Assembly (NCBI GenBank): GCA_016744395.1
Contig: JADGEK010000036.1
Coordinates: 1 to 43,889 of the forward strand
Length of the DNA stretch: 43,889 bases
Reading direction: 5' to 3'
Origin: Gammaproteobacteria bacterium
GTDB lineage: Bacteria; Pseudomonadota; Gammaproteobacteria; GRL18
Part shown: piece after piece, positions 2,322 to 29,578 of the stretch
How the letters are laid out: each line of letters starts with the position of its first letter
Numbering within the stretch: the first letter of the stretch is position 1
The notes under the pieces: model-generated
Database searches by the model: none
Told to the model about the DNA's origin: nothing
The model's input: the letters and a program-made list of their open reading frames with translations, nothing else
Position numbers and translations under genes: made by a program

Positions 2322-2354
2322 ATGCTCAATTACGATGTGAAGGTAAATTATAGT

Positions 2355-5934: not shown

Positions 5935-7242
5935 TTATTGAAGCATTGATTGAATGTTGCCAATCTCCTTGGCTAGTGCATAAGTTGATTTAAGTGATTC
6001 ATAATTAGCGTTAATTTGTGCGATCGTAGAATCAAGTAACTTGGCTTTTGAGTTAATGATAGCAATGGCGTTACCTTTTCCTTTTAACTTCAAATCTTTT
6101 CGTGCCTTATAAACTTTATTGGCAATTTCAAGAGTATTACGGGATATTTTTGCCCGTGCTTTCAAAGTGGAATATTTTTGCCAGGCAAGTCTGACTTTTT
6201 GATTGACTTCTTTTTTTACAGACTCGTAGTTATAACGCTCTTTTGTTAAACTGCCTGAAGCCGATTGCACTTTTTTATAGTTCTGATTACCCAGATTGTA
6301 TTTCCACTCCACTTTCAGATAGACACGTCCATCTTTAGTACGACCGCGAACACCTTCTTTGTTTTTCTCTTCTCCAAAACTTCCGACTAAATCAACTGTT
6401 GGCCAGTAGTCACCTTCAACGGCCACTTTCTTATATTGTGCAATTTCTATGTTGGATTCTGCCAAAGTAATGAATACACTTTGGTTGTTCGCCTGAGCCA
6501 GTGATTTATTTAAAGTCGCAGGCATGAGCTTTTTATTATAACTGGGCTGTAATAGTGTCTGCGGCTCTGCACTAACTCCGAATACCGATTCATAATTACC
6601 TAATGCTGAAAGGTATTTACCATCAATATCCGCTTGTTGCCCCAAAGCCTGTTGTAAAGAGAGTTGAGCTTCATAGACATCGACATCAGTTTTTGAACCT
6701 GAGCGTTTTGCCTTAGCCATTAAACTGGCATATTTTTCTAAAAGCTCAATCTTTTTTTCAACAATTTTCCTGGTCTCTTTATAATGCAAGACGTCAAGAT
6801 AGGCATTTACAGCATCTAATAAGATTTTTTGATAAACTTTTTCATAATTTTTTATGGCAATGGTTTCTTTAACCATTGCCTGACTTTCTGATGACTGGTC
6901 TTGAAAGCCTCTAAAAAGATTTTGTGATAATTCGACTAAATAACGATTATTATTCATATTAGAAGAATCAATGCCAGTACCAGAATCCTCATAAGATTGA
7001 CTGCCCACATCACCATTAATTCTTAATTCAGGCATAAAATTATCTTTAGCAACGTCAATATCAATACCCGCAATGGTCAACTGTTCTTTTGCTGCCGTCA
7101 CTTTAGGGTGGCTGTCGATAAATTGATCAATTGAGTTTTGTAAATTATCTGCCATGACACAAACATTTGACAAGGACAGAGATAAGCCTATCAATAAAAC
7201 TAAACTCAAATTTTTTTGAAGTACTTTATAACTATAGTTCAT
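5935..7242 (-). CDS. TolC-family outer membrane channel of a type I secretion system
   Basis: 435 residues with an N-terminal signal peptide (hydrophobic core about residues 12-30, probable cleavage after VMA). Long helical coiled segments follow, typical of the outer-membrane efflux fold. VELSQNLFRGFQDQSSESQAM is the beta-strand/turn segment commonly seen in type I secretion outer-membrane partners. It would form the trimeric exit duct linking periplasm to exterior. It is the last gene of the adhesin-CHAT-ABC-HlyD run, 31 bases after the HlyD gene, completing a three-part exporter. ATG 7242 gives a clean signal peptide. A general drug-efflux TolC is possible, but the context favours protein export. 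Confidence 0.9.
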   Translation of the reverse strand: MNYSYKVLQKNLSLVLLIGLSLSLSNVCVMADNLQNSIDQFIDSHPKVTAAKEQLTIAGIDIDVAKDNFMPELRINGDVGSQSYEDSGTGIDSSNMNNNRYLVELSQNLFRGFQDQSSESQAMVKETIAIKNYEKVYQKILLDAVNAYLDVLHYKETRKIVEKKIELLEKYASLMAKAKRSGSKTDVDVYEAQLSLQQALGQQADIDGKYLSALGNYESVFGVSAEPQTLLQPSYNKKLMPATLNKSLAQANNQSVFITLAESNIEIAQYKKVAVEGDYWPTVDLVGSFGEEKNKEGVRGRTKDGRVYLKVEWKYNLGNQNYKKVQSASGSLTKERYNYESVKKEVNQKVRLAWQKYSTLKARAKISRNTLEIANKVYKARKDLKLKGKGNAIAIINSKAKLLDSTIAQINANYESLKSTYALAKEIGNIQSMLQ

Positions 7243-7273
7243 ATATCAATCTCTAACCGCTCTTTTGTTTGTG

Positions 7274-8590
7274 TTACCTTTCCTGAAAAGCTTCATTTTT
7301 AATTTTCAAAAATGGCTTTAACAAGTATTCAAATACCGTTCTGGTGCCCGTATGTATTTCTATTGATGCTTCCATACCCGAGGAAATAGGATAATCAAGT
7401 TCATGATCACCGAGGTAGTTTTTTTTCGTTTTAATATCAACTTCATAATAAGAGTAACCCGATTTTGAATGAGTTAATGTGTCCGCACCTATTTGTAAAA
7501 CGGTGCCATCAAGACCCCCATAGCGTGAGTAGTCATAGGTCGTTACTTTTATAATGGCTTTTTGTCCTTCTTTTATATAGCCTCGATCAGCTGGATTTAA
7601 TTCTGCTTCAATGATGAGATTGTTACTGTCTGGTACAATTTCCAAAATGGCATCACCAGGGCGAATAACCCCTTGTATGGTATTGTATCTCATCTTCTTA
7701 ACAATTCCATTGATTGGGCTTTTAATTTGGGTTCGTAAACGCTGAGCATTTACTTTGGCCAATAATTCTGTAATTCTCACAATATATTGTTCAGCTTTAC
7801 TGAGTTGAGTACTGAGATTATTGTGAAACTTTTCTTTTATTTCTTCTTTTTTAGCCAGGGCTTCACGATGAGCCGATTGAGCTTTGGGGATGGAACTCTT
7901 AAGAATGTTAAGTTGGCCTGTGAGTGTCTCCAGAGTCGCTTTTATTTGTAAATGTTCCAACTTCGAAGTTAAACCTTTACTTAAGAGATCCTTGGATATG
8001 TGATACTGTTCATATTGAATGCTCTTCTCTCTTTTTAAAGTTTTTAATTTGGCTTCCAGCTCAGATATTTCCAATTTTTTTTGATTAATTTGAGTCTGGG
8101 CAACTTCCAATGAACTTTTTAGTTCACGATGCTGACTTATATAGGCTAATTTCTCAGCCGATACCAAAGCAGGATGATGTTGTGCAATGGAGTCAGGAAA
8201 ATCAGGTTTTTTATCTTTCAATTGAGCTTGCAGCCTTATTCGAGTTAAAAGCAAGGAATCAAGTTCTGCTTGTTTCTCTTCACGATTGATTTGCCCGAGA
8301 CCTAAGCTCAGTTTTAATAAAACTTGCCCACTAGAAACCCTGTCACCTTCATGAACCAGTATCTCTTCCAATATACCGCCCTCAAGATGCTGAATCACTT
8401 TAACTTGCTCTTGCGGTGCAACCACACCTGTTGCAGTCACCACTTCATCAAGCTCTGCAATTAACGACCAGATAATAAAAAAGCAAAGGAACAACATAAT
8501 AAGCCATGATCCCAATCGCAATGAACGGCCAATGGTAAAAAGCTCTTTAAATTGATCATCAGGAAGATTGTGAACTGGTTTCTGGGTCAT
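7274..8590 (-). CDS. HlyD-family periplasmic adaptor of type I secretion
   Basis: 438 residues. A single membrane anchor lies near residues 28-48 after a short cytoplasmic tail. The first lipoyl half follows (VIQHLEGGILEEILVHEGD, about residues 84-102), then a long coiled coil (about 115-280), the second lipoyl half (RTQIKSPINGIVKKM) and a C-terminal beta-barrel region. This is the layout of membrane-fusion proteins that bridge the inner-membrane ABC exporter and the TolC duct. The gene starts 3 bases after the ABC transporter stop, so the two are almost certainly cotranscribed and translationally linked. The probable cargo is the giant repeat protein upstream in the same run. Confidence 0.93.
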   Translation of the reverse strand: MTQKPVHNLPDDQFKELFTIGRSLRLGSWLIMLFLCFFIIWSLIAELDEVVTATGVVAPQEQVKVIQHLEGGILEEILVHEGDRVSSGQVLLKLSLGLGQINREEKQAELDSLLLTRIRLQAQLKDKKPDFPDSIAQHHPALVSAEKLAYISQHRELKSSLEVAQTQINQKKLEISELEAKLKTLKREKSIQYEQYHISKDLLSKGLTSKLEHLQIKATLETLTGQLNILKSSIPKAQSAHREALAKKEEIKEKFHNNLSTQLSKAEQYIVRITELLAKVNAQRLRTQIKSPINGIVKKMRYNTIQGVIRPGDAILEIVPDSNNLIIEAELNPADRGYIKEGQKAIIKVTTYDYSRYGGLDGTVLQIGADTLTHSKSGYSYYEVDIKTKKNYLGDHELDYPISSGMEASIEIHTGTRTVFEYLLKPFLKIKNEAFQER

Positions 8591-8593
8591 AAA

Positions 8594-10297: not shown

Positions 10298-10351
10298 TAA
10301 ATATCAATACAGAGTCTGTGTAAGGTTAGAGTTAAAATCACTGAACAGGTG

Positions 10352-13300
10352 TTAATCAGTACCGATGACCATAAAGGGCGCCCAGAACATGGGATGAGCA
10401 TAATATGAAAACTCTTTATTATCAATTAAATCAAGCACTGCTAAACGATGTGCTTCTGATTTTGTTAAGTTTTTTTTCTGACTATAAGTAAACAGGTTCG
10501 TCGTCAATGTGACGGTGGCATCAGACAAGACCTCCCAGTGAGTCACAAGAATGCTTCGAGCACCTGCGTAAAAAAATGCTTTTCCTAAACCAGAAAGACC
10601 TTCTGCTCCAGGAGTTCCATCATCAGAGGCTGTGTTACAGGCTGATAACACAACCATATCGACATTCAGATCAAGCTCAGTGATCTCACTGGCTGTTAAC
10701 AAGCCATTATTGCTCACACCATAGCTTGATATTGAGGGTGTTAAGACTAACGCAGGCTCAAACAGACCTTCAAAATCACCTGCCATCAGACCATGAGTTG
10801 CAAATTGTACGACATGGTAATTTGAGAGATTTTTCTGAAAAAGAGTTTCTTCTGTTGCCTCATCTCTCAAGTAAACATCTTTACTATTACCTTTTAGTAT
10901 GGATGAAATCTGTTTCAACTCTGTTGCCGTTTCAGGCAGTTCAGGTATTTCAGATAAAATATCCACAGCAACATTGGAACGATGACTGCCAATGATAGAG
11001 CGGAGACTATTGGAACTCATCAAGTTATCATTTACTCCAGTCAAGCCACGTAGAGCAGGACTATTACTGCGTAATTTAATTGTTTCGACTGTTTTCACTA
11101 GTGAAGGATCGCCAAAACCAACAAAGCTATGCACGGAGGTATTTTTTTTATGTTTAATATGTCTTAATAAAGTGAAGGAATTGACCGCAGGTAACGATGA
11201 AACAGTCTTTTCTTTAATTAACCAATGGACATTTCGATGCTGTTCAGGTGTTTTAATCTCACTTAATGGCTTCTGAGTAATCAATACAGACAAGGGTAAA
11301 CTTTGTAAGGCCGCATCAGAAATGACAAACAGTTTTTTTATGTCATTGAGTGATGAATAAGCGGGTTCCAGTATTTTTTTAAAGAGTTGATAGGTCTTAT
11401 TAACAGGTAAAGGTGGGATTTGATTAAAATCAGCCACCGTAAGATATCTAGGTACCAGGACTTGTCTTAAAGTTCGAACAGTTTGTTCCAGTTCATCTTC
11501 ATTGATGTCAAGTTGATAAAGATTTGCAGTCGTTGGCTTGACTAGCCATAGATAGCTTTTTTCTTGACCGAACAAGTAAACAACCATTGCTTCATCTGTT
11601 TTTAAAGCAGCTTGAACCTGCTTGATTGACACGGTGTTTGAATTAGCAAGGTTATCATACTTAGGAAATTGATTACGAATTTCCAATTCACTTTTCTCAA
11701 TATTATCTTTCAGATTTTTGGCAAACTGGCGTAATTGATCTTCATATTCAAAATTACGTTGTGCTGGCTTTTGAGCAAAAGCCGTAGATAAAATCGTATC
11801 AATATCCTGCCATTGCTCCAGTAAGTCCTGCTGTGCACGTATTTTTTGAGCCAGCACATCAGAACCTGTTGAAAAACGATGAGACATTTTAGCCAAGGCT
11901 CTGGCTGCACTGGTTGAACGAGATAATTGGGCTGTTTCAAAAGTCTCATTTAATAATTCATCTTTATGATTAAATTTATATTGACTATAAAGGATGTCAA
12001 TATGATTAATTGAAACTTGCTTTAAAGATTTTAATTCTGTGGTCAGGCTCTGAGCTCGAAGACCAGAATGCCTCTTTACTCTTAACTTTAAGCCTTTAAT
12101 CGCTTTTCTGGAATAATCAATAGCCTGTTGAGCTTTGTATCTATCCAGATAAAATTTTGCAATATTCGAGTTCAGTTTAATTTCTTCCAGCCAATCCCCT
12201 GAGCCTAACTGGCCTGCAGCAGTAATGCCACGTAAGTAGTATTTTTCTGCTTCACTATAGCGTTTCAGTGAAAACAGGACGTTAGCAATTTGGTGGTTCA
12301 CCTCTGCCGTCGCAATATTAAAATCACCGTATTTTTCCTGTAAAACTTTTAATGCCACAAAAAGCTTATCTAAAGCTTGTTGTGGCTTTCCCTGACGAAA
12401 TAATGAAACCGCCAGCCATGTCTGTGCATTAGCCGTAAACCTCGGACGATATGAATCAGGTTTGGACCAAATATTAGTGGCTTGCTTAAAATGGTGAATG
12501 GATGGATTGTGTTGATTTAAAAGGTAATAAAGATAGCCAAGATGATTGTGAGTTTCGGCAATTGAAATATGATAGGCCTTATAAAATTGATGTTTAATTT
12601 CTAATGAACGCTTTAGCACCTTTTCAGACTCTTCATAACGTCCTTGAAGATAGTACAATTGCCCTAAATTATTCAAAATAGTCGCAATGTATGGGTGTTC
12701 TGCACCGACTTGTTTTTCATAGAGCACAAAACCTTGATGGTATAAATCTTCTGCTTCTGAAAAAAAATGCACCCCTTTAAGAGCACTGGCTAGAGATATC
12801 AGGGTCTGTGCGACGGCTGGGTCAGTTGCACCTAAATATTTCTGCCTCAATGATAATGTTTGTCGATATTGCTTAACCGCTTCATTGGTCTTCCCCTGCC
12901 CCAATAACATTTCACCTTTTAGCTGAAATATGTTTGCCTGCAGTATTTGAGCATTTTTTGATGTATCACTATTGATTAAGTCTTGAGATTCTTCTAAATA
13001 CTCATTCGCCTGGTTGCTTTCATGGCGCTTAATATGAACCCGAGCTAAAGGAAGTAATATTTCAATCAACTTAATGCTTTTGACTGGATACAGTTTTCTT
13101 GCAAGAGTCAGCAATTCATTATATTTTTTTAATCCCAGACGTTCATTACCCTGATTAATGGCATTTTGGGCCATCAAAAAATTAACACGGAGATTATCAA
13201 GAGTATCTCTATACCCCCATACCGACAACTTTTCAGATAAAGCACTTAGGGTTGATTGCTGCTTTGGATAATCGGCACGTCGAAGGTACATATCAGCCAG

Positions 13301-13540
13301 AGTCAAATAACTTTTATACAGCAGTGATTTATTGGTTTGTGAATTTGCAGATTGTATAAATTGAAGGAGTCGATCTTCTGCTTCTTGTTTCTTACCATTT
13401 TTATACAATTCAATTGAATGTTGTAATGCAAAAGAAGATGTTGACGGTGATTGTACGCTGACTGCAAGAGTGCTTGTCGACGTGAATAAAAAAAAAGCAA
13501 GAACAAAGAAGAGTATAGAAAAAGTCGTTTTATCAGTCAT
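10352..13540 (-). CDS. Exported TPR-repeat CHAT-domain protease
   Basis: 1062 residues. A signal peptide at residues 1-26 (hydrophobic ILFFVLAFFLFTS) is followed by many tetratricopeptide repeats of kinesin-light-chain type (about 35-560; for example LNNLGQLYYLQGRYEESEKV), a helical linker, and a C-terminal CHAT domain (about 730-1060). The CHAT catalytic pair is visible: His about 916 in FATHG and Cys about 968 in LSACNT, followed by GAEGLSGLGKAFFYAGARS. CHAT proteins are caspase-clan (CD) cysteine proteases; TPRs usually bind the partner or substrate. The gene lies between the giant repeat protein (33 bases upstream) and the exporter genes, so its substrate may be the exported protein or an envelope partner. 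That link is inferred. Confidence 0.92.
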   Translation of the reverse strand: MTDKTTFSILFFVLAFFLFTSTSTLAVSVQSPSTSSFALQHSIELYKNGKKQEAEDRLLQFIQSANSQTNKSLLYKSYLTLADMYLRRADYPKQQSTLSALSEKLSVWGYRDTLDNLRVNFLMAQNAINQGNERLGLKKYNELLTLARKLYPVKSIKLIEILLPLARVHIKRHESNQANEYLEESQDLINSDTSKNAQILQANIFQLKGEMLLGQGKTNEAVKQYRQTLSLRQKYLGATDPAVAQTLISLASALKGVHFFSEAEDLYHQGFVLYEKQVGAEHPYIATILNNLGQLYYLQGRYEESEKVLKRSLEIKHQFYKAYHISIAETHNHLGYLYYLLNQHNPSIHHFKQATNIWSKPDSYRPRFTANAQTWLAVSLFRQGKPQQALDKLFVALKVLQEKYGDFNIATAEVNHQIANVLFSLKRYSEAEKYYLRGITAAGQLGSGDWLEEIKLNSNIAKFYLDRYKAQQAIDYSRKAIKGLKLRVKRHSGLRAQSLTTELKSLKQVSINHIDILYSQYKFNHKDELLNETFETAQLSRSTSAARALAKMSHRFSTGSDVLAQKIRAQQDLLEQWQDIDTILSTAFAQKPAQRNFEYEDQLRQFAKNLKDNIEKSELEIRNQFPKYDNLANSNTVSIKQVQAALKTDEAMVVYLFGQEKSYLWLVKPTTANLYQLDINEDELEQTVRTLRQVLVPRYLTVADFNQIPPLPVNKTYQLFKKILEPAYSSLNDIKKLFVISDAALQSLPLSVLITQKPLSEIKTPEQHRNVHWLIKEKTVSSLPAVNSFTLLRHIKHKKNTSVHSFVGFGDPSLVKTVETIKLRSNSPALRGLTGVNDNLMSSNSLRSIIGSHRSNVAVDILSEIPELPETATELKQISSILKGNSKDVYLRDEATEETLFQKNLSNYHVVQFATHGLMAGDFEGLFEPALVLTPSISSYGVSNNGLLTASEITELDLNVDMVVLSACNTASDDGTPGAEGLSGLGKAFFYAGARSILVTHWEVLSDATVTLTTNLFTYSQKKNLTKSEAHRLAVLDLIDNKEFSYYAHPMFWAPFMVIGTD

Positions 13541-13573
13541 CAGATCATTGGTATTTCATTATGTGACAGCGGT

Positions 13574-18634: not shown

Positions 18635-19018
18635 GTTGGCTTGTTCCTATTTTTCCATACCAATGTAGTCAAAGCTCATAGAAATGGGTAAAACGTTATT
18701 TAATTCCCTACTTTAAGTATGGCTTTATTTTGAATAAAAATCAATATTCAATATGATATACTTACTGAAAAAAAACAATATTTTTACAAACAATATCAAT
18801 AGTTTAAAAAAATAATCATATCTGGCAGCCGTTAAGTATCAGTATCTAAACTAACTGCTGATTAAGCCAATTAATGTTGTCTATTTCAATGCAGTGAATG
18901 GAACAATAGAATCAATTAAGAAAATATTCTTAATTTTGGATCTTCAAATTAAACCGTACCTTTTAAACTTACAGCTTAGTGAGCAGAGCGGCACTTGGGG
19001 CTTAAAAGAATCGAGGGG
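18635..19018. promoter_or_regulatory. A+T-rich region upstream of the giant protein gene
   Basis: No gene is seen. AATTAAGAA (18914-18922) and TTCTTAATT (18927-18935) form a perfect 9-bp dyad around AATA, about 280 bases upstream of the TTG start. It could be an operator or a weak structured element. A promoter for the adhesin-secretion unit should lie here, but no unambiguous -35/-10 pair was found. Confidence 0.4.
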
Positions 19019-19508
19019 CTCGCTAGGATAAGTGCTTGTGAAAACGATTGTGAGGTGGATGGTCTTGCTTGACTGGGGACGCTTCAAGCCATCCATGGTC
19101 GCTTAAGTTCCGGCATCCATGCCTCCACAAACCCCATTCAAGCAAGACCACCCACCCCCCACTCTTCAATCGCAGTTTTCCTCACTCGTGTTATCCAAAA
19201 GCAACATCAAAAGATGAGAAAAAGTCAAATAACAACCCCCTCAGTCCCCCTTCTAAAGAAGGGGGAAGCAACAGCAAAAACTCTGAATATTGGTCTTGTT
19301 CCAGTTGCTTTGGTTTTTGATGTTGCTTTTGGACAACGCGAGCGAGGTAAGTGCCGTAAGAGGCTGTGAGGAAGGTAGGTGCGTCTGTCTGGGGTTTTCG
19401 AAGGCATGGATGCCGGAGGTTAAGCATGCCAGGGATGGCCTTGAAGCGGCCCCAGCCAGATGCACCTATCTTCCTTACAGTCGTTTTATAAGCATTTCAC
19501 CGAGCGAG
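19019..19508. mobile_element. 490-bp fold-back (MITE-like) element built from two inverted 170-bp palindromic copies
   Basis: Copy A (19019-19188) and copy B (19339-19508) are each imperfect palindromes of about 170 bp and lie in opposite orientation. The outer ends match (CTCGCT-GG...TGCTT...AAAACGA). The cores share GCTTCAAG-CCATCC and CCGGCATCCATGCC. Inside A, GGTCTTGCTTGA is inverted at 19060-19071 and 19138-19149; inside B, 19364-19394 pairs with 19450-19480. The 150-bp centre is bounded by a 22-bp inverted repeat (19191-19212 with 19315-19336, 21 of 22 matching) and holds TCCCCCTTC-TAAA-GAAGGGGGA (19245-19266). There is no transposase, so it is a non-autonomous element or REP-like composite. 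Confidence 0.8.
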
Positions 19509-19650
19509 AAACACTTCTCTTTCTGTTGATCTTGAATTACCGCAATGCTCATTAAGCTACAGGTTTAAAAACCGAAAGTACTGAAGTGTAAAAAAGCATT
19601 AAGAGCCATTTATTCCCTCAGCTAATGCCCCTTATCTAAGTTAATAACTC

Positions 19651-20292
19651 TTACTTCTGTGCATTAATCACTCTAAACTGCACTCTCCTGTTTTCAGGAG
19701 AACCAGGTTCAGAAGGCGTCAACAACTCATCTTCACCTTTACCAACCACAATCATGCGTTTATCAACCACATTGTACTGGCTTAAATGATTTTTCACACT
19801 ATCTGCCCTTTGCTGTGATAGCCACAGGTTATAGTAGGTTTCACCAATAGCATCCGTGTGCCCTTCAATGACAAAGAAGCAATTTTGCAACTGAGGCATA
19901 TTCATTGCCTGTGCAATTTTCTTAAGCATTTGAGTGTCCTGAGCTTCAATAGTACTGGAGTTAGATTGAAAACGAATATTGACAGCAACCGATTGAGCGC
20001 CCGCCATACAAGCATCAGCAGCCTGATTGGCAGCCATCTGCTGACCCATTTCTTGTTGATCAGCCTCAATTGCTGGTTTATCTTTCTTCAAACTAATGCC
20101 TCTAAACTTCATACTACTTGCAGCTGGGGTTTTCTCAACCATGAAAGCATTTAAGATATCATCAGAAGAAGGATCCTGATTTTGCAAAGAAACAACACCG
20201 TCTTCAGCAATCGCGTTGAAACTGATAGAAGCGAATACGCAAATACTCAAAAAACCTTTTAATGTTTTTCCCAAAATTGTTTTATTACTCAA
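19651..20292 (-). CDS. OmpA-family peptidoglycan-binding protein
   Basis: A TTG at 20292 preceded by GGAGG at 8-base spacing is preferred to the in-frame TTG at 20307, which precedes that ribosome site; this gives 213 residues. A signal peptide (GFLSICVFASISFNAIA) leads into a linker rich in polar residues and a C-terminal OmpA-like domain (about 90-210). That domain shows NIRFQSNSSTI, IEGHTDAIGETYYN, LSQQRADSVKNHL and NRRVQF, the features that bind diaminopimelate in peptidoglycan. No beta-barrel domain is present, so it is a periplasmic or peptidoglycan-anchored protein. It ends the sensor run that starts with the Ser/Thr kinase and is separated from the giant protein by the 1-kb repeat-bearing gap. 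Confidence 0.88.
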   Translation of the reverse strand: MSNKTILGKTLKGFLSICVFASISFNAIAEDGVVSLQNQDPSSDDILNAFMVEKTPAASSMKFRGISLKKDKPAIEADQQEMGQQMAANQAADACMAGAQSVAVNIRFQSNSSTIEAQDTQMLKKIAQAMNMPQLQNCFFVIEGHTDAIGETYYNLWLSQQRADSVKNHLSQYNVVDKRMIVVGKGEDELLTPSEPGSPENRRVQFRVINAQK

Positions 20293-20361
20293 AAGAATTT
20301 CCTCCAATTAACATGTATATTTCTAATAATACCACCTAATAGCATCGCATTCATCTAAACT

Positions 20362-21288
20362 CTATGGAATACTCCAAATATCTAATGCGTATTTAGCTAT
20401 ATTAGATTGTTTATTTTCAGATAAGATTTGATCCATTTTTTCCTTGTAATCGTGACTTTTTTCAATAATTTCAACTGATTTCAACTCATCATTCAGTGGT
20501 GAAGCACTGACCATAGCCTGTATGCGCTCTTCACCATAGGGATTTTCAACAACTAATTTCAATTTGGATTTATTGCCTCCAACCACATAAATTTGACCCG
20601 CTTTTATTTCATGCTTTTCTTCAAACAGGTTAGGAATCAAGTGAACTACATTGCCATCAGCCTGAAAATAATCCAGTTTTAAATAAGCATCTCTATCCGC
20701 TATTAAGTAAATAATAATATGCTCACCAGAGCGATAATACATATTATCTTTCTTAGCAGTCCATATTCTCAATTTTACATCATTTTGGTTTTGTCTGGGA
20801 TTCACCCGCCAGCTTTTAGATTTATCGTTTTTCATCACTTCTGCTGATAAGTCATTTTTTGGCGATTTTACTGGTGATACGCCTCGAACATGAAATGCCG
20901 CTTTTTTAAAGCTGTCTTTATCACTTAATACAACTTCTGGAACCTCACAATCAAACACTTCCGTTTTTTGAAGTTTGCCACTCAGCACCTTACTTTTTTC
21001 CAGCCCAACCTGCAGAATCGTATTTTCACCAAACCATTCCTGACGGCAACCTAAATAATAAGTCAAAACCAGTGATGAATTCGGTCCTACTTCCATTTTA
21101 TCTTTAAAAATAACATCATCACCAAAATCGGCAGCTTTATTAGCCTCACTTACGATAGAAACATTGCCGTCCAAATTGGTAATAATACCCACCGCCGACT
21201 GCTCACTCGCATTACTGGTAAAAGTGATCAAAACCATAGCACAGAGCAGAATGCTGAACAGAATGTTTCTTTTTAATTCCTTAGTCAT
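20362..21288 (-). CDS. Periplasmic FecR-like protein with C-terminal DUF4384-like domain
   Basis: 308 residues. A signal peptide covers about 1-28 (ILLCAMVLITFTSNA). Residues about 32-125 (VGIITNLDGNVSIV...GPNSSLVLTYYLGCRQEWFG) have the look of a FecR-type periplasmic sensory domain. Residues about 170-275 (YRSGEHIIIYLIADRDAYLK...HLIPN...PYGEERIQAMVSASP) match the DUF4384 pattern, a domain also visible in the kinase that heads this cluster. ATG 21288 overlaps the cyclase stop by 8 bases (ATGACTAA), so translation is coupled. It probably relays an envelope signal to or from the cyclase. The ligand is unknown. Confidence 0.8.
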   Translation of the reverse strand: MTKELKRNILFSILLCAMVLITFTSNASEQSAVGIITNLDGNVSIVSEANKAADFGDDVIFKDKMEVGPNSSLVLTYYLGCRQEWFGENTILQVGLEKSKVLSGKLQKTEVFDCEVPEVVLSDKDSFKKAAFHVRGVSPVKSPKNDLSAEVMKNDKSKSWRVNPRQNQNDVKLRIWTAKKDNMYYRSGEHIIIYLIADRDAYLKLDYFQADGNVVHLIPNLFEEKHEIKAGQIYVVGGNKSKLKLVVENPYGEERIQAMVSASPLNDELKSVEIIEKSHDYKEKMDQILSENKQSNIAKYALDIWSIP

Positions 21289-23101
21289 TGTTTGCTTCTC
21301 TTAAACTTTTCACTTCATAGACATAAATATCTGCCCGGCCTTTCAGAGCAACATTGCCTTTGGCTTCGCAAATCACTGAGTGCTCAACTTCTTTTTGAGC
21401 ATCGTCTGTTAATAGTATAGGAGCTCCGACTGTTTTAGTCACCCCTTCAACTCTGGATGCGGTATTCACACTATCACCAATTGCAGTGTAGTCCATTTTC
21501 TTGTCCGAACCAATATTGCCAACCAGTGCATACCCTGTATGCAAACCAATACCATTATCTAGCTGTGCCCGGTCTTCTGACGCCCACTTACGATTTAACG
21601 CTTCCAGCCGTTTACGCATTTCAATGGATGCTTTGACAGCGGCCAGAGTTGGATTGTCAATATAAAGCGGTGCACCGAAAAAGGCCATTAAACCGTCGCC
21701 AATAAACTTATCAACCGTACCACCATTTTCTAATATCGCCTCAGTCATTGCAGAAAAATATTCATTCAAAGCTTTAACCACCTCTTCTGGAGGTAAATTC
21801 TCCGAATAAGTCGTAAAACCTCGAATATCAGAAAAAAGAATGCAAATTTTTTCTCTTTTTCCTTCTAAAGCAAGAGGCTTATCTGAACTTAAAATTTCTT
21901 TCACAACTTGTTCATTAACATAGCTTCTAAAAAATTTAGCCAGGCGTCGCTTACTTCTCTCTTCAGTCACAAATCGATAAAAAAAGCTGACACCAAAACT
22001 CCAGAAGATCAAGATAATCGGAACAATGTAGGGTAAAAGAATATTGGAATTAAATACGATTAAATTAACCACCGAATACAAAAGAAGCACCACCATCGTT
22101 AACAGAATGGATGAACGTATTCCTTTTTTTGATGAGTAATAAACCACCAGAAAAGCAAGACCAAAGTTCAGAGCTAAAATCCAGGCAAAAGATATACTGG
22201 TTAACAAGTTATTATTAACCAGCATATCAACGCCATGAGCATGAATAAGAACACCTGGCGTTTCTTGAGCAATCGGTGAAGGTAAAATATCTCCAGAAAC
22301 ATTTGTTACACCAACCAGAACAATTTTATCTTTAAAATTTTCTTCAAAGTAAACTTTGTTATCGGCTTTGGCCTGATTTAAAACCTCGATAAAAGAGAGA
22401 ATTTTAAATTCTTTATTCAATTGATAATTAATCAATAAGGGCTTGCTATCCAGTATTTGTGTAGAATTATTGAGAAAATGGGTTGCAACCAGATGATCAA
22501 AACCTGGAAGTGATTTCTGATCTCCAGTCACTGAAGGGTATTGCAGTTTTATTTGTCGAATATAGTTATCAGAATCAGGTAAAGTGTTAACGACACCAAA
22601 ACCATCGCGACCAACAATTGCACCGAAGTGCTTCATTGGTAAAGAGGTATCAAGCTCATGCAGTTGAGGATCCAGGTTTTTTCTTGTTGCACCACCAATA
22701 CCCATAACAATTTTTGTATGATATTTATTTTGAGCAATCAGCAAAGCCCGTCTTAATGCATTTCGTTCTTTAGCAGGTCGCTTTACAAAATCATCAATTC
22801 GTTTTGTCCAAATTAAGTCAAGCCCAATCACTTTTGCCTGGTATTTCCCTAACTTCTCAAAAATTTCAGCAAAAAAGGTATCCCACAAAATGAAAGGCTG
22901 TTTAATTTCTCTGATAGAAACATCATCAATGCCGATAATGACAATTTGATTGGAAACTTCTTTATCATAAAAATAATCACTGCGTAATTCATAACGAGCA
23001 TCAAGTGCTTTCATTTCAAGAAAATGAACAACGCCTGTGTGCTCAATCAGTGTACTAAAAAGCACACCCAGTAGTGCAATAATAATGTATGGGTATTTCA
23101 T
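21281..23101 (-). CDS. CHASE2-domain class III adenylate cyclase
   Basis: 606 residues. An N-terminal membrane anchor, an extracytoplasmic CHASE2 sensor (about 25-290, including IVIIGIDDVSIREI), three transmembrane helices (about 300-375) and a class III cyclase domain (about 395-600). Metal-binding aspartates are present (FSDIRGF, Asp about 425; IGDG, Asp about 469). The purine-specifying positions carry Lys (DKFIGD, about 465) and Asp (KMDYTAIGD, about 537), as in adenylate rather than guanylate cyclases, and NTASR supplies the Asn/Arg transition-state residues. It should therefore be active and make cAMP in response to an envelope signal. It is coupled to the FecR-like gene and follows the hydrolase gene by 33 bases. 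The ribosome site is weak. Confidence 0.93.
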   Translation of the reverse strand: MKYPYIIIALLGVLFSTLIEHTGVVHFLEMKALDARYELRSDYFYDKEVSNQIVIIGIDDVSIREIKQPFILWDTFFAEIFEKLGKYQAKVIGLDLIWTKRIDDFVKRPAKERNALRRALLIAQNKYHTKIVMGIGGATRKNLDPQLHELDTSLPMKHFGAIVGRDGFGVVNTLPDSDNYIRQIKLQYPSVTGDQKSLPGFDHLVATHFLNNSTQILDSKPLLINYQLNKEFKILSFIEVLNQAKADNKVYFEENFKDKIVLVGVTNVSGDILPSPIAQETPGVLIHAHGVDMLVNNNLLTSISFAWILALNFGLAFLVVYYSSKKGIRSSILLTMVVLLLYSVVNLIVFNSNILLPYIVPIILIFWSFGVSFFYRFVTEERSKRRLAKFFRSYVNEQVVKEILSSDKPLALEGKREKICILFSDIRGFTTYSENLPPEEVVKALNEYFSAMTEAILENGGTVDKFIGDGLMAFFGAPLYIDNPTLAAVKASIEMRKRLEALNRKWASEDRAQLDNGIGLHTGYALVGNIGSDKKMDYTAIGDSVNTASRVEGVTKTVGAPILLTDDAQKEVEHSVICEAKGNVALKGRADIYVYEVKSLREANND

Positions 23102-23134
23102 AAGTAAAAGTTCATGATTAAGTATTCATACCTT

Positions 23135-23989
23135 CTATTTATTATTATGTTGAATTTCAGGCCAATGTTCTACCCAACAACATGAGTGATCAAAGCCTTC
23201 AACAATACGATAATGTACAAAAGTATTATCGATAAGATGGTTTAATAAAGCCTCATTGATTTTTAATGGGACAATTAAGTCATTACTTCCAAACAAGTGA
23301 AACTGTGGCACGTCCTTCAATTTAGAGAGAAAAGAATGAATATCCAGAGAACCCTTTAAAGGAGTGACCTCATGGTATCTAGTCCACAGTTTATGGTCCA
23401 GGTTCGAAGCAATTGTCGTTAATTGAACAACGTCACTGCGTTGAGCTGCAAGCAACATGCCAATCACTCCACCGCCAGAAAAACCAATAATTTCAAATTG
23501 ACGAATACCATACTGCTCTTTCAAGGCATTAAAAATCACATGATAAGCATCAATAACTGCCTGGCTATAGCGATGACTGGTCCAATACTTTGGCTCACAA
23601 TTGATCATTGTCTGGCTAATTTCAAATTGACAAGGACGGGCAAGATAAAGAACATTATTGCGATCATCCTTAACAGCCAAACGTAATGCCATCGGGTTGA
23701 CTGGTGTCGGGTTAATGGAGCGTTTAAAACGACTTTGCCATGCTAAGCCATCGCCTTCAATATAGACGGTTAATACCTTTAAAGCCTTTTTCCTATTATT
23801 TTTTAATGCAGAACTTTTTTTCCAGCCAAAAATTGTAAAAACGCCTGTATCAAACGTAATTGATTGAAGCCCCGCTTTTGCTGCAATTCTCGTGGCAGTT
23901 TCACTACGCTCGGTTAAATCCGTCATTGAACAGGAGAACACAAAAAATAAACTGCCTAAAAGTAAACAATAATCTCTGATTAACCTCAA
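23135..23989 (-). CDS. Alpha/beta-hydrolase-fold putative lipoprotein
   Basis: 284 residues from a TTG start; the ribosome site is poor, so the exact start is uncertain. The N-terminus (LLLGSLFFVFSCSM) looks like a lipoprotein signal with Cys about 20. The body shows an alpha/beta-hydrolase catalytic set: nucleophile elbow GFSGGGVIG (Ser about 170), an acidic residue in FGSNDLIVP and His in EGFDHSCCWVEHW near the C-terminus. RPCQFEIS and CEPKYWT precede the elbow. The substrate is unknown; an esterase or lipase acting in the envelope is the simplest reading. It lies 24 bases after the caspase-like gene and 33 before the cyclase gene, which ties it to the signalling cluster. Confidence 0.8.
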   Translation of the reverse strand: MRLIRDYCLLLGSLFFVFSCSMTDLTERSETATRIAAKAGLQSITFDTGVFTIFGWKKSSALKNNRKKALKVLTVYIEGDGLAWQSRFKRSINPTPVNPMALRLAVKDDRNNVLYLARPCQFEISQTMINCEPKYWTSHRYSQAVIDAYHVIFNALKEQYGIRQFEIIGFSGGGVIGMLLAAQRSDVVQLTTIASNLDHKLWTRYHEVTPLKGSLDIHSFLSKLKDVPQFHLFGSNDLIVPLKINEALLNHLIDNTFVHYRIVEGFDHSCCWVEHWPEIQHNNK

Positions 23990-24013
23990 TTTTTATCACT
24001 ATTATTTAAAAAC

Positions 24014-26494
24014 TTATTGATAAATCTCAAAATCATGCCCTTGGCTGGAACCAACAGGTGTCACAATCAATTTTTCATCCAGTCCACCTCTCTCACTACT
24101 TGAAGCATAGTTTCTTGAAGCCATAGCATGAGCTAGTGCTGGGACAAATTTTTCAGCATATTGTTGTAATTCGCTGACCATTAATTTGCCATCCTTAGGC
24201 CATTGATCCGCATTATAAAAACCTTGGCTATTCTTTTTCATGCCATTTAAGAGTGTATAAGTAAAAAGTCCATGCCCAAGTTCACCAAACTCAGGAGCTA
24301 ATTGATCTGCACGGGTAGCAGCAATAATATGAATACCTGTATTTTTAGATAAACCTCTCAAGGCTCTGCGCTGATGAAAGTTATTAAAGACATCGGTCAC
24401 TGCACCTGACTGACAGGCATCAATAATGAGCACAATTTTTTGACTTGGGATATCAACAAATTTGTGCATTAATTCATTTGCGGACAAACCAACGGACTTT
24501 AAATGCTTAGGGTCATTTTGAATTTTGGCTTCCTGCGGCAAAAAATACCATTGATTATCAATAACAATACCATGACCAGACATGAAAACGACTAACATAT
24601 CATTTTTATTTGCTACCCGCTTAGTTCGGTCAAATAAGGAAAGGATGGCTTTTTTACTGGCTTGCTGATTCAGCATTAAGGTATTGACTCTAGCACCTTG
24701 TTTTTTATTCTTATCCGAGGAAAAGGCTAGAGCAGAAGAAGAAAAAGTCTTAAAAATATCCTTTGCATCAGCAACAGCAAAATCAAGCGCTAAGTCTTTA
24801 CCTTTATATTCATCAATTCCAATACTCTTCATAAACATACGTTTAGGCTTAGGCCTTACATCTTGCTTCGCATTAAAAATAACTTGTTGAGACTGCCCTG
24901 AAACATTTTCCCAGCCTTTAACTTCAACATTAAAACCATTTAAACCCTTTACAGGCACCACTTTTAAAGCCCATTCTTTTATACCATAACGCCCATCTTG
25001 AGCACTTTTTGTTAAAATAATGTTTGACTCTGGTACTTTCTTTCCATTATGAAAAATTTTAATTTCACGCATTGCATCAGGTGAGCCATCGACGGTTGCT
25101 TTTACAGTCAGTTTAATTTTTCCAGGCAAGCGAAATTTTTTTTCATTTGTTAAAATTTTAACCGTCACTAAAGGGGGCAAATAAATACCTTTTTCAATTT
25201 CTACTTCAGGCTTAGTGATCATTTTTTGTTTCTTAGTCAATATTTTTTCTAATAAGCCTGGTTCAAAATATTTTTCAGAAAATTGGTCCAAGTCAATCAA
25301 CTTGCCTTCAGCATCCCATGAAACATCATGAAAGGCATCTTCATTACCATCATATCGGCCTTTTTTATCCAACACAGCCCAGCCACTTTTAGTTGAAACC
25401 AGTTGAGCTATTTTTTTATTCTGATTAACATCCACTAATAACAGGCCGCTTTGACGTTTAGGGGATATCAGATATTGACCTTTTTTGTAAAACTGAAATA
25501 AATTAGAGTTCAAATCAGTATTTAATATTGTCACTTTATTATTATTTAATATTTTTCCCGTCTTGACATTTTGCTTAACTACAGACCCCTCTTTTGTAAG
25601 AATATTTAACTGCTCATCAGAAAAATCGATTAATAAGGCAGGTTTATTAGCTAATTTAATTGCTTCAAACTTCTGTTTATTCTGATTTGCGTAAGCATAT
25701 CGTCCATTCTTAAAATACAACGCTAAGGCCGTTCCCTTACGGTTAAAGAAGGCTCTATTAATGGTATTCTTCATTACCCAGCTCTGGGAAAGAGACAATT
25801 TATTTGTTTTCTTAGAGAAGCGGTATAGAGATAATTTTTTATCAGCGCTTGATACTAAAATCTGATTGCTTTTATCAGCAACATCAAGCGAATTAATTGC
25901 TGATTTTAATTTAACTCTGGAAAGTAATTTATGTTGTTTATTTTTTTCAAAAACCAGAATTTCATTTTTTATTGTACTTAAAACAATCAATTCAGCACTC
26001 ACACGAACAAAATGATAACGATGGCCTTTCTGTAATTTTTTTATTCTTTTAAATGCTTCGCCTGCAACTAAAGGTTTACTATAAATCAAGCCTGAATCAT
26101 CAATCAAATAGATTTCCTTTCTATTATAATCAATAAAAAAATCTTTCAACTTCATTGATTCTAAAGAAAAATTATCAATTTCTTTGCCTTTTTCCATATC
26201 CCATACACTAATATAGGCACCTTCCATTGTCATGGCTAAATAGCGTTTATCTTTTGAAAAGCGCATTATTTGAGGATATTCAATTTTATTTTTTTTAGTT
26301 GTTAAGGTAGGAACAATCGCTGCTTTAACTTGTTTTTTAATAGCATTAGAAACCTGTGATGAAAGCTGTCCACCAAAGGGTCGAGCATGAGCGTATGAAG
26401 ATAAAAAGAAAACAATAAAAACAGTCATCAGGATACAAATTAATGCATTTCTTAATTTATAGCAGTGCTTAACCGTCATCATTCTCTCTCTCAT
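24014..26494 (-). CDS. Exported beta-propeller-like protein with C-terminal caspase (peptidase C14) domain
   Basis: 826 residues. A signal peptide or anchor spans about 16-38 (LICILMTVFIVFFLSSYAHA). Residues about 55-390 are blade-like repeats resembling WD40 (YLAMTMEGAYISVWDMEKG). A beta-rich linker follows, then a caspase-like domain (about 560-800): IGIDEYKG, FMSGHG with His about 641, and IIDACQSG with Cys about 694, the C14 catalytic dyad. ATG 26494 directly abuts the stop of the barrel gene (TAAATG); ATG 26482, right behind GAGAGAGA, is an alternative start. With the CHAT protein it gives this locus two different caspase-clan proteases. Substrate and activator are unknown. Confidence 0.92.
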   Translation of the reverse strand: MRERMMTVKHCYKLRNALICILMTVFIVFFLSSYAHARPFGGQLSSQVSNAIKKQVKAAIVPTLTTKKNKIEYPQIMRFSKDKRYLAMTMEGAYISVWDMEKGKEIDNFSLESMKLKDFFIDYNRKEIYLIDDSGLIYSKPLVAGEAFKRIKKLQKGHRYHFVRVSAELIVLSTIKNEILVFEKNKQHKLLSRVKLKSAINSLDVADKSNQILVSSADKKLSLYRFSKKTNKLSLSQSWVMKNTINRAFFNRKGTALALYFKNGRYAYANQNKQKFEAIKLANKPALLIDFSDEQLNILTKEGSVVKQNVKTGKILNNNKVTILNTDLNSNLFQFYKKGQYLISPKRQSGLLLVDVNQNKKIAQLVSTKSGWAVLDKKGRYDGNEDAFHDVSWDAEGKLIDLDQFSEKYFEPGLLEKILTKKQKMITKPEVEIEKGIYLPPLVTVKILTNEKKFRLPGKIKLTVKATVDGSPDAMREIKIFHNGKKVPESNIILTKSAQDGRYGIKEWALKVVPVKGLNGFNVEVKGWENVSGQSQQVIFNAKQDVRPKPKRMFMKSIGIDEYKGKDLALDFAVADAKDIFKTFSSSALAFSSDKNKKQGARVNTLMLNQQASKKAILSLFDRTKRVANKNDMLVVFMSGHGIVIDNQWYFLPQEAKIQNDPKHLKSVGLSANELMHKFVDIPSQKIVLIIDACQSGAVTDVFNNFHQRRALRGLSKNTGIHIIAATRADQLAPEFGELGHGLFTYTLLNGMKKNSQGFYNADQWPKDGKLMVSELQQYAEKFVPALAHAMASRNYASSSERGGLDEKLIVTPVGSSQGHDFEIYQ

Positions 26495-27919
26495 TTAAAA
26501 GTCATAACGTATATTTGCACTGACGGTATAATCATTATGACCTTCCCTTAAAAAGGTTTTATTGTAAGATATCTCACCCAATAAATTTTCACTTGCATTA
26601 AAACGAAGACCGACACCTGCATTCAATCCAAAATCATCATCTTCATAAAGTGAGCTGTCATTATCAGCAACATTCCAAAGAGCGCCTAAGGTACCATAGT
26701 ATTCGCCCCAACTTTTTGGTTGAGCTAATTCAGTATTCAGTAAAAATTCAGAAACAGTCGAGCTATCCAGATTCATCTGATTGGTTACACTCGAATTAGT
26801 TGATAACTGTGCAGTATAGGAGTCAGAGCTGGCATATCCATAGTTATACCCCAAATCCATGGTGAAATTCAGGCCATTATCCAGCTTAGAACTACGCATC
26901 ACTCCAAAACCAGCAAAGTGATTATCCGTATCATAATCACCATCAAACGAGGCTACTGAGCCAAAAATGGTTCGATCTTTAATATCCGTATCTGATGAGT
27001 TATAGCCAATATGTCCATAGGCAGTAAAGCCTGAATCAAAATTATAGGCCGCATAAGCCGAAATAACATAGCCATCAGTATCTGTTTTGCTCTTATCATT
27101 AGAGTCAGTGTCTGAGGATTCATACCCCACTAGACCGCCAAGCAATAATTTAGGATTAATGAGTATGTCTGCGCCTAACAAATAACTTTCCTGACTACCT
27201 GTAAAATGAGAAGCATTTGAAATCATGGCTGTATTTTTAATACTGGTATGAGTTGGCGTAAACCAGATTGCTACTCCAGAACTTGTATCCCCTGCATTCA
27301 ATCCATTTTCAGCATAATCGGCACGAGCTAAAGAAAAACGCCCCGTTTTATAAAGTGTTTTAATGTGATCGGTGTAGGTAGAACGTATATGATCGACTTT
27401 TTTTCGTAATACATCGCGATTAATATTTTCAACAGACTCTTCTGCTCTTTCTTGATCTTGGGCAGAAATTCCATAATAACTCTGGCCACTAAAGTGATCC
27501 ACAATAATATAAGATGGGATATCTCCAGAAAAAGTCACGTTAAATACTTCCAGACCCGCGCCTATAGATGTGCCTGTCAAAGTATAACCCGTCGTTCCAC
27601 TGGTACCGACAGTCGTTGTGTTTGAATATTGAGAAACTAAAATGCTCTGGTTCGTAACACCACCACTACCTGTAAAGGTAAGGGATGATGTCGTGGAAAC
27701 CTGGGTGATAAAACCATTATCTTCAAGTGCAAGAAAAGGGCTAAATCCACTCGTTGTCACTGAAGCAGTTGTTGAGAAACAAGTGGTACAAGCCCAGGTC
27801 AATTGGTATTCCCTAACATTATTACCACCATTTAAAGCATCTGCAGATGCAATATTAGCAAAAACCAACCCTGACAAAGTAAAAAGGCTTGCTAGAGAAG
27901 TTTGTTTATTAAAAATCAT
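26495..27919 (-). CDS. Outer membrane autotransporter-type beta-barrel protein
   Basis: 474 residues. A signal peptide (about 1-26, ending NIASADA) is followed by a Ser/Thr/Gly-rich N-terminal domain (about 30-155) with a WACTTC motif, a charged helix (about 160-200, QERAEESVENINRDVLRKK) and a C-terminal barrel (about 205-474) of alternating strands ending in RYDF. A terminal Phe is the classic BAM recognition feature. The barrel strands (YLLGADILINPKLLLGGLVGY) match the autotransporter domain. The passenger is very short, so it may act as an outer-membrane sensor or anchor rather than a classical adhesin. It lies 54 bases after the kinase gene and abuts the caspase-like gene. Confidence 0.83.
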   Translation of the reverse strand: MIFNKQTSLASLFTLSGLVFANIASADALNGGNNVREYQLTWACTTCFSTTASVTTSGFSPFLALEDNGFITQVSTTSSLTFTGSGGVTNQSILVSQYSNTTTVGTSGTTGYTLTGTSIGAGLEVFNVTFSGDIPSYIIVDHFSGQSYYGISAQDQERAEESVENINRDVLRKKVDHIRSTYTDHIKTLYKTGRFSLARADYAENGLNAGDTSSGVAIWFTPTHTSIKNTAMISNASHFTGSQESYLLGADILINPKLLLGGLVGYESSDTDSNDKSKTDTDGYVISAYAAYNFDSGFTAYGHIGYNSSDTDIKDRTIFGSVASFDGDYDTDNHFAGFGVMRSSKLDNGLNFTMDLGYNYGYASSDSYTAQLSTNSSVTNQMNLDSSTVSEFLLNTELAQPKSWGEYYGTLGALWNVADNDSSLYEDDDFGLNAGVGLRFNASENLLGEISYNKTFLREGHNDYTVSANIRYDF

Positions 27920-27973
27920 TATGGCCTAATCCCTAAATTAAATTTTAATGTCTATAATACTGCTATTAATCAA

Positions 27974-29578
27974 TTAAAACACCCTGATATCAAAAAAAGT
28001 ATCCGTTATTTGAGTTTCATTTATTTGTAAGTAAATGGCTTTAACTTCTTCCAAAGAACTCACAGGCAATGCTTCAAAATCCACTCCAACAATATCGGAA
28101 GGTAATCGGTCAATTATATTTTGTGCAGTAGCAAAACAAGCAACTCTTTCACTGATCCCATCGTTACTCGCATTCATATTAAATTTTGAATCACCAGGTA
28201 AAATAAGAGGTTTAGATTTCAAGATAAGAGATTGTATATTAAATCGGTTGGGAAAAAATCGACTGATTTCACCCTTTTGGTTTTCAAAGTAACAATAGAT
28301 ATAAGCATCCTGTTGTGTGCTCACCATAAGATTAAAAGACTCGCCAGGTGCTAAAAACACATCATTTTTATCCGCGTATCGAATTTCTAAGGTATTTTTA
28401 AGCTCATTATTAGATTGGATAATATTTGTCTCATCAATAGAAACAATTGAAGTCGAACTTTTGTTTGTATCCACTGAAAGACGCGTGGTATTGTTAGTAG
28501 CCGTTATTTCAGGCCAAAAAAAGTAAACAATAGTTGCGAGCAATAGACTGAAAATTGATGCCATAAATCCCCACTTAACGTAATTTTTTTCTGAGCCATT
28601 TTTCTTTGAGCTATTTTTCTTTGAGCCATGAGCACCTTGTTTTTTTTTCTTATTTTTTTTACTCAACCCCAGATTCAAAGTCACAGATTGGCACTGGTGT
28701 ATTAAGTCTTCATAAGATGGCGGGCGATCATCTTTATCAACAGCCATCATAGATAAAATTAAATCCACCACTTTTGTATTTAATTTAGGATTTATTTCTT
28801 TAGGGTTCAATGACTCCAATGAATTTTTTTTGATCACCATTTCAGTAAGATTATAACCCGCAAATGGCTTTTTACCTGTCACCATATGAAACAAGACACA
28901 GCCCAGGCCATAAATATCGACTTTGAAGTCAACATTATCAGGATCATTAAATTGCTCTGGAGCCATGGAACTTGGTGTTCCAAGCATTGTACCGACAACG
29001 GTTAAATCATTATTTTTATCAGATTGAGTTGAACGTGCAATACCCAAATCAGCTAATTTTGGAGTAAAATTAAATTCTGAGTCTGCCCCCTCATTTGAAT
29101 GCAATGGCTTGAGTAAAATATTCTCTGCTTTGATATCACGATGGATAATTGTTTTTTTAAAAGAATAGTCCAGGGCAAGAGTGATCTGCTCAATAATATT
29201 AAGTGCAGTCACTTGATCAATAATACCCACTTTTTTAATCCAATCTTGTAAAGAAGGGCCTTCTACAAATTCCATCGCTAAATACGGTGAAACAGGATAG
29301 TCAGATGCTTCAAGGGTCATTCCCGCCTGGAAGCAGGAAACAATATTCGGATGGATTAAATCAGCAAGAATTCGAGCTTCTCGGTGAAAGCGCTGAACAA
29401 AGTCTTCGTTGACAACATTTTGGTTCACATTTAAAACTTTAATCGCCACATCACGATTCAAAAAAGGCTGTCTCCCTTTATAAACCGTACCACTTCCCCC
29501 CTTACCAAGTATATTGAATACTTCCAGGTCAGGAATTTGGGGAGAGGCCAGACTGAATTCTTCAGTCTTATCAGTCAT
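27974..29578 (-). CDS. Membrane Ser/Thr protein kinase with C-terminal DUF4384-like domain
   Basis: 534 residues. A Hanks-type kinase domain (about 18-300) carries glycine loop GKGGSGTVYKG (25-35), Lys47, catalytic HRDIKAEN (146-153), DLG (177-179) and an activation segment with GTMLGTPSSMAPEQ, so it should be active. A lysine-rich juxtamembrane segment, one transmembrane helix (about 336-356) and a periplasmic tail follow. The tail (about 395-510, APGESFNLMVSTQQDAYIYC...RFFPNRF) matches the DUF4384 pattern also present in the FecR-like protein of the same cluster. The kinase heads the run and probably reads an envelope signal. A perfect 18-bp palindrome at 29629-29646, just upstream, may control it. 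ATG 29578 has only a weak ribosome site. Confidence 0.92.
   Translation of the reverse strand: MTDKTEEFSLASPQIPDLEVFNILGKGGSGTVYKGRQPFLNRDVAIKVLNVNQNVVNEDFVQRFHREARILADLIHPNIVSCFQAGMTLEASDYPVSPYLAMEFVEGPSLQDWIKKVGIIDQVTALNIIEQITLALDYSFKKTIIHRDIKAENILLKPLHSNEGADSEFNFTPKLADLGIARSTQSDKNNDLTVVGTMLGTPSSMAPEQFNDPDNVDFKVDIYGLGCVLFHMVTGKKPFAGYNLTEMVIKKNSLESLNPKEINPKLNTKVVDLILSMMAVDKDDRPPSYEDLIHQCQSVTLNLGLSKKNKKKKQGAHGSKKNSSKKNGSEKNYVKWGFMASIFSLLLATIVYFFWPEITATNNTTRLSVDTNKSSTSIVSIDETNIIQSNNELKNTLEIRYADKNDVFLAPGESFNLMVSTQQDAYIYCYFENQKGEISRFFPNRFNIQSLILKSKPLILPGDSKFNMNASNDGISERVACFATAQNIIDRLPSDIVGVDFEALPVSSLEEVKAIYLQINETQITDTFFDIRVF

Follow-up and report, generated by a model that had tools for sequence, protein, structure and literature searches.

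The 12 genes at positions 5935 to 29578 of the window (the whole analysed stretch of 43,889 nucleotides, which is the entire contig C191 of a 4.87-Mb, 212-contig genome) probably form two adjacent modules, the second being a later, separate insertion. Block A (29578-19651, seven genes) encodes envelope-signalling proteins. Block B (18634-5935, five genes) is probably a BapA-like adhesin operon, whose TPR-CHAT protein would trim or release an adhesin exported by the type I route. It resembles a bap-type operon to which an exported TPR-CHAT gene has been added. Telling the conserved signalling cluster apart from the acquired adhesin operon avoids the mistake of studying them as one system.

All 12 genes lie on one strand, as originally predicted, and their assignments are backed by Pfam and NCBIfam matches. 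Block A runs in the order Ser/Thr kinase-DUF4384, barrel, WD-caspase, lipoprotein hydrolase, CHASE2-cyclase, FecR/DUF4384 and OmpA; block B runs giant protein, TPR-CHAT, ABC, HlyD and TolC. The active-site motifs of the kinase, cyclase, caspase, hydrolase, CHAT protein and ABC ATPase are complete. Intergenic distances within the blocks are 0-54 bp plus one 8-bp overlap (3-54 bp inside block B), and OmpA and the giant gene are 1,016 bp apart. Two coupled units had been proposed from the small gaps and overlaps. The two units are visible, with 1,016 bp between them and no sign of coupling. A scan for promoters and terminators gave no more signals than shuffled sequence did.

Table 1. Features at positions 5935-29578 of the window (12 genes, all on the minus strand, catalytic motifs intact) and the boundary between the blocks.
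Feature	Position	Strand	Block	Evidence
TolC-family outer-membrane channel	5935..7242	-	B	OEP E 3e-43; TIGR01844 E 4e-45, below its cut-off
HlyD-family type I adaptor	7274..8590	-	B	TIGR01843 390 bits vs cut-off 208.65, E 1e-116
Type I ABC permease/ATPase, 567 aa	8594..10297	-	B	TIGR03375/01842
Exported TPR-CHAT protein	10352..13540	-	B	CHAT E 3e-50, TPRs; dyad His916/Cys968
BapA-like T1SS substrate, 1686 aa	13574..18634	-	B	Short BapA-type N-prefix, repeats, T1SS-type C-terminus
Block boundary	18635..19650	.		Palindromic dispersed repeat at about 18961-19570
OmpA-family periplasmic protein	19651..20307	-	A	OmpA E 7e-20
FecR-like DUF4384 periplasmic protein	20362..21288	-	A	DUF4384 E 6e-19
CHASE2 adenylate cyclase	21281..23101	-	A	CHASE2 E 4e-36, cyclase E 4e-24; motifs at 423, 465, 537, 545
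Probable lipoprotein alpha/beta hydrolase	23135..23989	-	A	Weak Abhydrolase matches; GFSGGG 169
Exported beta-propeller (WD) caspase	24014..26494	-	A	Peptidase_C14 E 5e-13; dyad His641/Cys694
Autotransporter-type outer-membrane barrel	26495..27919	-	A	PF03797 E 1e-16
Transmembrane Ser/Thr kinase, periplasmic DUF4384	27974..29578	-	A (first gene)	Pkinase E 3e-47, DUF4384 E 2e-12

We compared the block A locus with its counterparts in relatives. In G004, G005 and G012, three further species of the genus, the genes from the kinase to OmpA are syntenic and 54-83% identical. First, OmpA (orthologs 58-65% identical) directly adjoins a conserved 1172-aa gene there, with no exporter between them. In addition, a pyruvate-kinase/1172-aa pair lies at one end of the relatives' cluster and, on contigs long enough to show it, an FKBP gene at the other. 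Finally, orthologs of the DUF4384 protein at 20362-21288 occur in five other species of the genus (G004, G005, G007, G009 and G012) and in one further genome of the family, G018; G007 and G009 retain the CHASE2-cyclase/DUF4384 pair without the remaining block A genes. In G004, extra genes separate the hydrolase from the caspase, and the kinase is only partial, at a contig end. Block B was found in the present genome only; no HlyD ortholog was found in 56 relatives, the nearest protein being 35-38% identical. The original prediction had joined all 12 genes into one system and took unlinked halves in relatives to speak against it. All three relatives keep block A without the secretion half, and we rejected a single 12-gene system as the leading view. 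The type I exporter does lie beside the signalling cluster in this contig, an arrangement that had been called unusual and that none of the relatives shares.

The simplest reading is that block B was inserted between OmpA and the 1172-aa gene. GC3 does not separate blocks A and B; therefore, the insertion may be old. Loss of block B in the relatives is a possible alternative to an insertion. It also counts against the insertion and operon view that block B is seen in one genome only, so that just the gene spacing points to a working operon.

Some features near these loci were recorded in passing. The 1172-aa protein (window 2322-5840) is 85-91% identical within the genus and has zero Pfam matches. 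The relatives' signalling cluster has a gene for a GAF protein and an MlaE/ABC/MlaD operon next to it or within it (L047 16106-20000, L046 11034-15032, L049 16332-19734); both are absent there in the window. Near its CHASE2/DUF4384 pair, G007 encodes a caspase that also has FGE-sulfatase and PEGA domains (L052 4050-6155).

The block A proteins were examined individually. The kinase carries VAIK at 44, HRD at 146, DLG at 177 and a transmembrane segment at about 333-360. In the hydrolase, the GFSGGG motif and the D and H residues are conserved (4 orthologs). The His641/Cys694 dyad of the WD-caspase is invariant in 4 orthologs (64-70% identity), and the protein has zero matches among solved structures. 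Of the FecR-like/DUF4384 label given to the protein at 20362-21288, the DUF4384 part holds, being its only Pfam match, and the FecR part refers to form only. The kinase and the CHASE2 adenylate cyclase probably read the periplasm via their DUF4384 and CHASE2 domains, alongside OmpA, the outer-membrane barrel, the lipoprotein hydrolase and the exported caspase. Anti-phage defence (e.g. Pycsar) was considered and rejected: the six proteins scanned gave only generic kinase, cyclase and caspase domain matches, with no known partner genes. The C14 caspase had been tied to the giant protein, but it belongs to the older block A and is uninformative about the giant.

The giant protein of block B resembles type I adhesins of the BapA kind, with weak matches at its N- and C-terminus. 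At its N-terminus, where a LapA-type retention module was sought, Pfam and NCBIfam gave only a weak BapA prefix below cut-off (BapA_N E 2e-4, 21.4 bits vs 27; NF033677 19.1 bits vs 35). Its C-terminus matches a Pantoea protein annotated as a BapA/Bap/LapF adhesin (36% identity, E 9e-9, 58% of the query), whose plasmid-borne gene is followed by TolC, ABC and HlyD genes. The protein has zero cysteines, no Sec signal and zero matches among solved structures. It is a repeat protein, as predicted, although 1686 aa is a modest size for an adhesin. The Synechocystis and Pantoea plasmids matching the C-terminus have no adjoining CHAT gene.

The type I exporter is complete, as had been claimed, with TolC, HlyD and ABC genes all present. 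The ABC protein has its Walker A at 372, signature at 476 and Walker B at 497. It has no N-terminal C39/CLD domain, and the TIGR03375/01842 matches begin at residue 22-26. We infer that the giant is exported via this linked channel, the adhesin leaving through ABC, HlyD and TolC. A second T1SS lies elsewhere in the genome, on contig C130. Neither the FHA-type TPS domain (PF05860) nor ShlB (PF03865) was found in the 12 proteins.

The TPR-CHAT protein has a hydrophobic stretch at residues 5-30 (export signal), and Cys968 is its sole cysteine. The dyad H916/C968 is conserved in relatives, and searches of solved structures returned TPR matches only. TPR-CHAT is missing at the block A locus in relatives; the best match in the genus is 35%, on an unrelated contig. 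The remains of another TPR-CHAT gene were seen at G000:C59:87137-87358 (L029, about 9137-9358), a fragment that contains 4 stop codons and is 54% identical to the C-terminus of the window protein. Exported by Sec, this predicted cysteine protease would trim or release the giant, and it is plausibly a processing or release protease for it, analogous to LapG. Regulated display or cleavage of the giant had been proposed; caspase-like processing survives as a reasonable model for TPR-CHAT.

To look for the same pairing elsewhere, we used the giant C-terminus as a query against 398 phylum genomes. The sole strong relative outside the present genome was in G300, of a different class (3e-17, 36%; next 2e-11), where the gene is convergent with the G300 TPR-CHAT gene. 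In the G300 genus, this gene adjoins TPR-CHAT in 4/4 genomes carrying it; the four pairs seem to be one chromosomal locus and one independent event. The N-prefix of the giant also matches G792 (E 6e-6). In a tree, the window TPR-CHAT groups with G451 and lies outside the G300 clade. The tree thus does not support a common origin of the window and G300 proteins, and the pairing with the giant is therefore old or arose twice. A general linkage of TPR-CHAT to type I secretion was rejected: among about 46 loci, 1 has a T1SS adaptor no more than 10 kb away, which is roughly what chance would give. The one other T1SS/TPR-CHAT neighbourhood, that of G482, is not conserved in its genus. The literature searched held no paper joining CHAT domain, type I secretion and adhesin, nor one joining TPR-CHAT and adhesin.

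Alternatively, TPR-CHAT might be a stress or cell-death protease that works by itself, came to lie in the adhesin operon by chance and does not act on the giant. In most TPR-CHAT loci, neither a T1SS nor a TPS partner lies within 20 kb, which favours this view. A plasmid CHAT gene that accompanies caspase, patatin and serine protease genes (Pseudosulfitobacter, NZ_CP085162.1, L180 1533-11455) fits such a role. However, the window protein carries an export signal, its gene fits tightly between the giant and ABC genes, the same substrate type is paired with TPR-CHAT in another class, and relatives show a pairing with FHA/ShlB. We consider this explanation unlikely, with some weight left to it, and keep TPR-CHAT as the candidate processing protease of the giant.

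The FHA/ShlB pairing was seen in G007 of the genus and G018 of the family, in which TPR-CHAT adjoins ShlB and FHA-like genes; the TPS domain is confirmed in G007. At L129, ShlB, a CHASE2-cyclase, a FecR-like protein and TPR-CHAT occur together. The earlier statement that CHASE2/FecR/CHAT/OmpA neighbourhoods sit with two-partner secretion is borne out by these loci. It seems that TPR-CHAT works for giant exoproteins whether these leave the cell by the type I or by the two-partner route. Tentatively, exported TPR-CHATs may even represent a second, caspase-like class of adhesin-processing protease, acting on giant exoproteins of the type I or two-partner route and gated at some loci by a neighbouring CHASE2 cyclase. 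Their position next to giant exoproteins that are exported in two unrelated ways offers a concrete, testable substrate for the role of exported TPR-CHATs in Gram-negative envelopes.

We also asked whether blocks A and B work together. In 3/35 other loci (L032, L091 and L129; the G482 genus sweep excluded), a CHASE2-cyclase is encoded no more than 10 kb from TPR-CHAT, compared with 0/21 control stretches, which are few and unmatched. A DUF4384 (FecR-like) protein is near TPR-CHAT in L031 and OmpA is close in L089 and L114, again with none in the 21 control stretches; G451, the nearest TPR-CHAT in the tree, has a cyclase and OmpA alongside. Published work connects CHASE2 sensors to FecR-type proteins in the control of biofilms and symbiosis (PMC5192318, PMC5498481), and in the CHASE2 cyclase-Clr circuit of S. 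meliloti the cAMP regulator Clr has a FecR-domain gene among its targets (PMC5498481). Since CHASE2/FecR/TPR-CHAT neighbourhoods exist elsewhere, it may matter that block B was inserted beside block A, and cross-talk of TPR-CHAT or block B with block A through cAMP or kinase control is possible. A further form of this idea is that all the genes, adjacent and on the same strand, make one functional system: the CHASE2-cyclase/kinase block would sense the envelope and control export or cleavage of the giant via TPR-CHAT, and block B would have landed here because the partners cooperate, in the manner of the CHASE2/FecR/TPR-CHAT loci with two-partner secretion. We think this quite unlikely, as block A is kept without block B in 3/3 relatives and a 1 kb gap holding a dispersed repeat divides the blocks.

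The boundary repeat is about 610 bp long (18961-19570), is self-inverted over 640 bp with inverted arms, and looks like a MITE- or REP-like family. The genome contains 56 matches to it, some of them at about 90% identity, and the other copies are mostly partial. A junction created by misassembly at this repeat is highly improbable: the many-copy repeat sits exactly at the boundary in an assembly of 212 contigs, but its remaining copies are mostly partial, and a random join would not yield flanks (to the left the 1172-aa gene, to the right OmpA) that adjoin each other in relatives. Two adjacent modules, with block B inserted later, remain our preferred reading.

In the Lap system, the adhesin LapA is exported by LapBCE and LapG is a periplasmic cysteine protease. 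The window shares with it, as predictions here, a type I adhesin, a periplasmic cysteine protease and the proposed release logic. The difference is that TPR-CHAT has a CHAT (caspase-like) domain and not C93. LapD and LapG (C93) are absent from the locus and the two C93 genes lie on other contigs (C124 and C98); the partner encoded here is therefore no protease of the Lap type. The TPS loci with TPR-CHAT/CHASE2/FecR (L129, L032, L027, L030 and L035) likewise have an exported TPR-CHAT by a large exoprotein system, sometimes with a CHASE2-cyclase, but export goes through ShlB/FhaC there and through a type I channel here. The CHASE2-FecR operons of Burkholderia (BiofilmReg, PMC5192318) and S. meliloti (PMC5498481) share the CHASE2 sensor and FecR-type periplasmic partner with block A. 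The output of BiofilmReg (PMC5192318) is a histidine kinase, whereas block A has a cyclase and Ser/Thr kinase, a caspase and a barrel. The bap-type operon (BapA/Bap/LapF) resembles block B in the weak BapA prefix, the Bap-like C-terminus and the clustered TolC/ABC/HlyD genes. Block B differs from it in that the adhesin is only 1686 aa, the ABC protein is 567 aa compared with about 734 aa annotated in the Pantoea plasmid, and an exported TPR-CHAT gene sits between the adhesin and the ABC gene.
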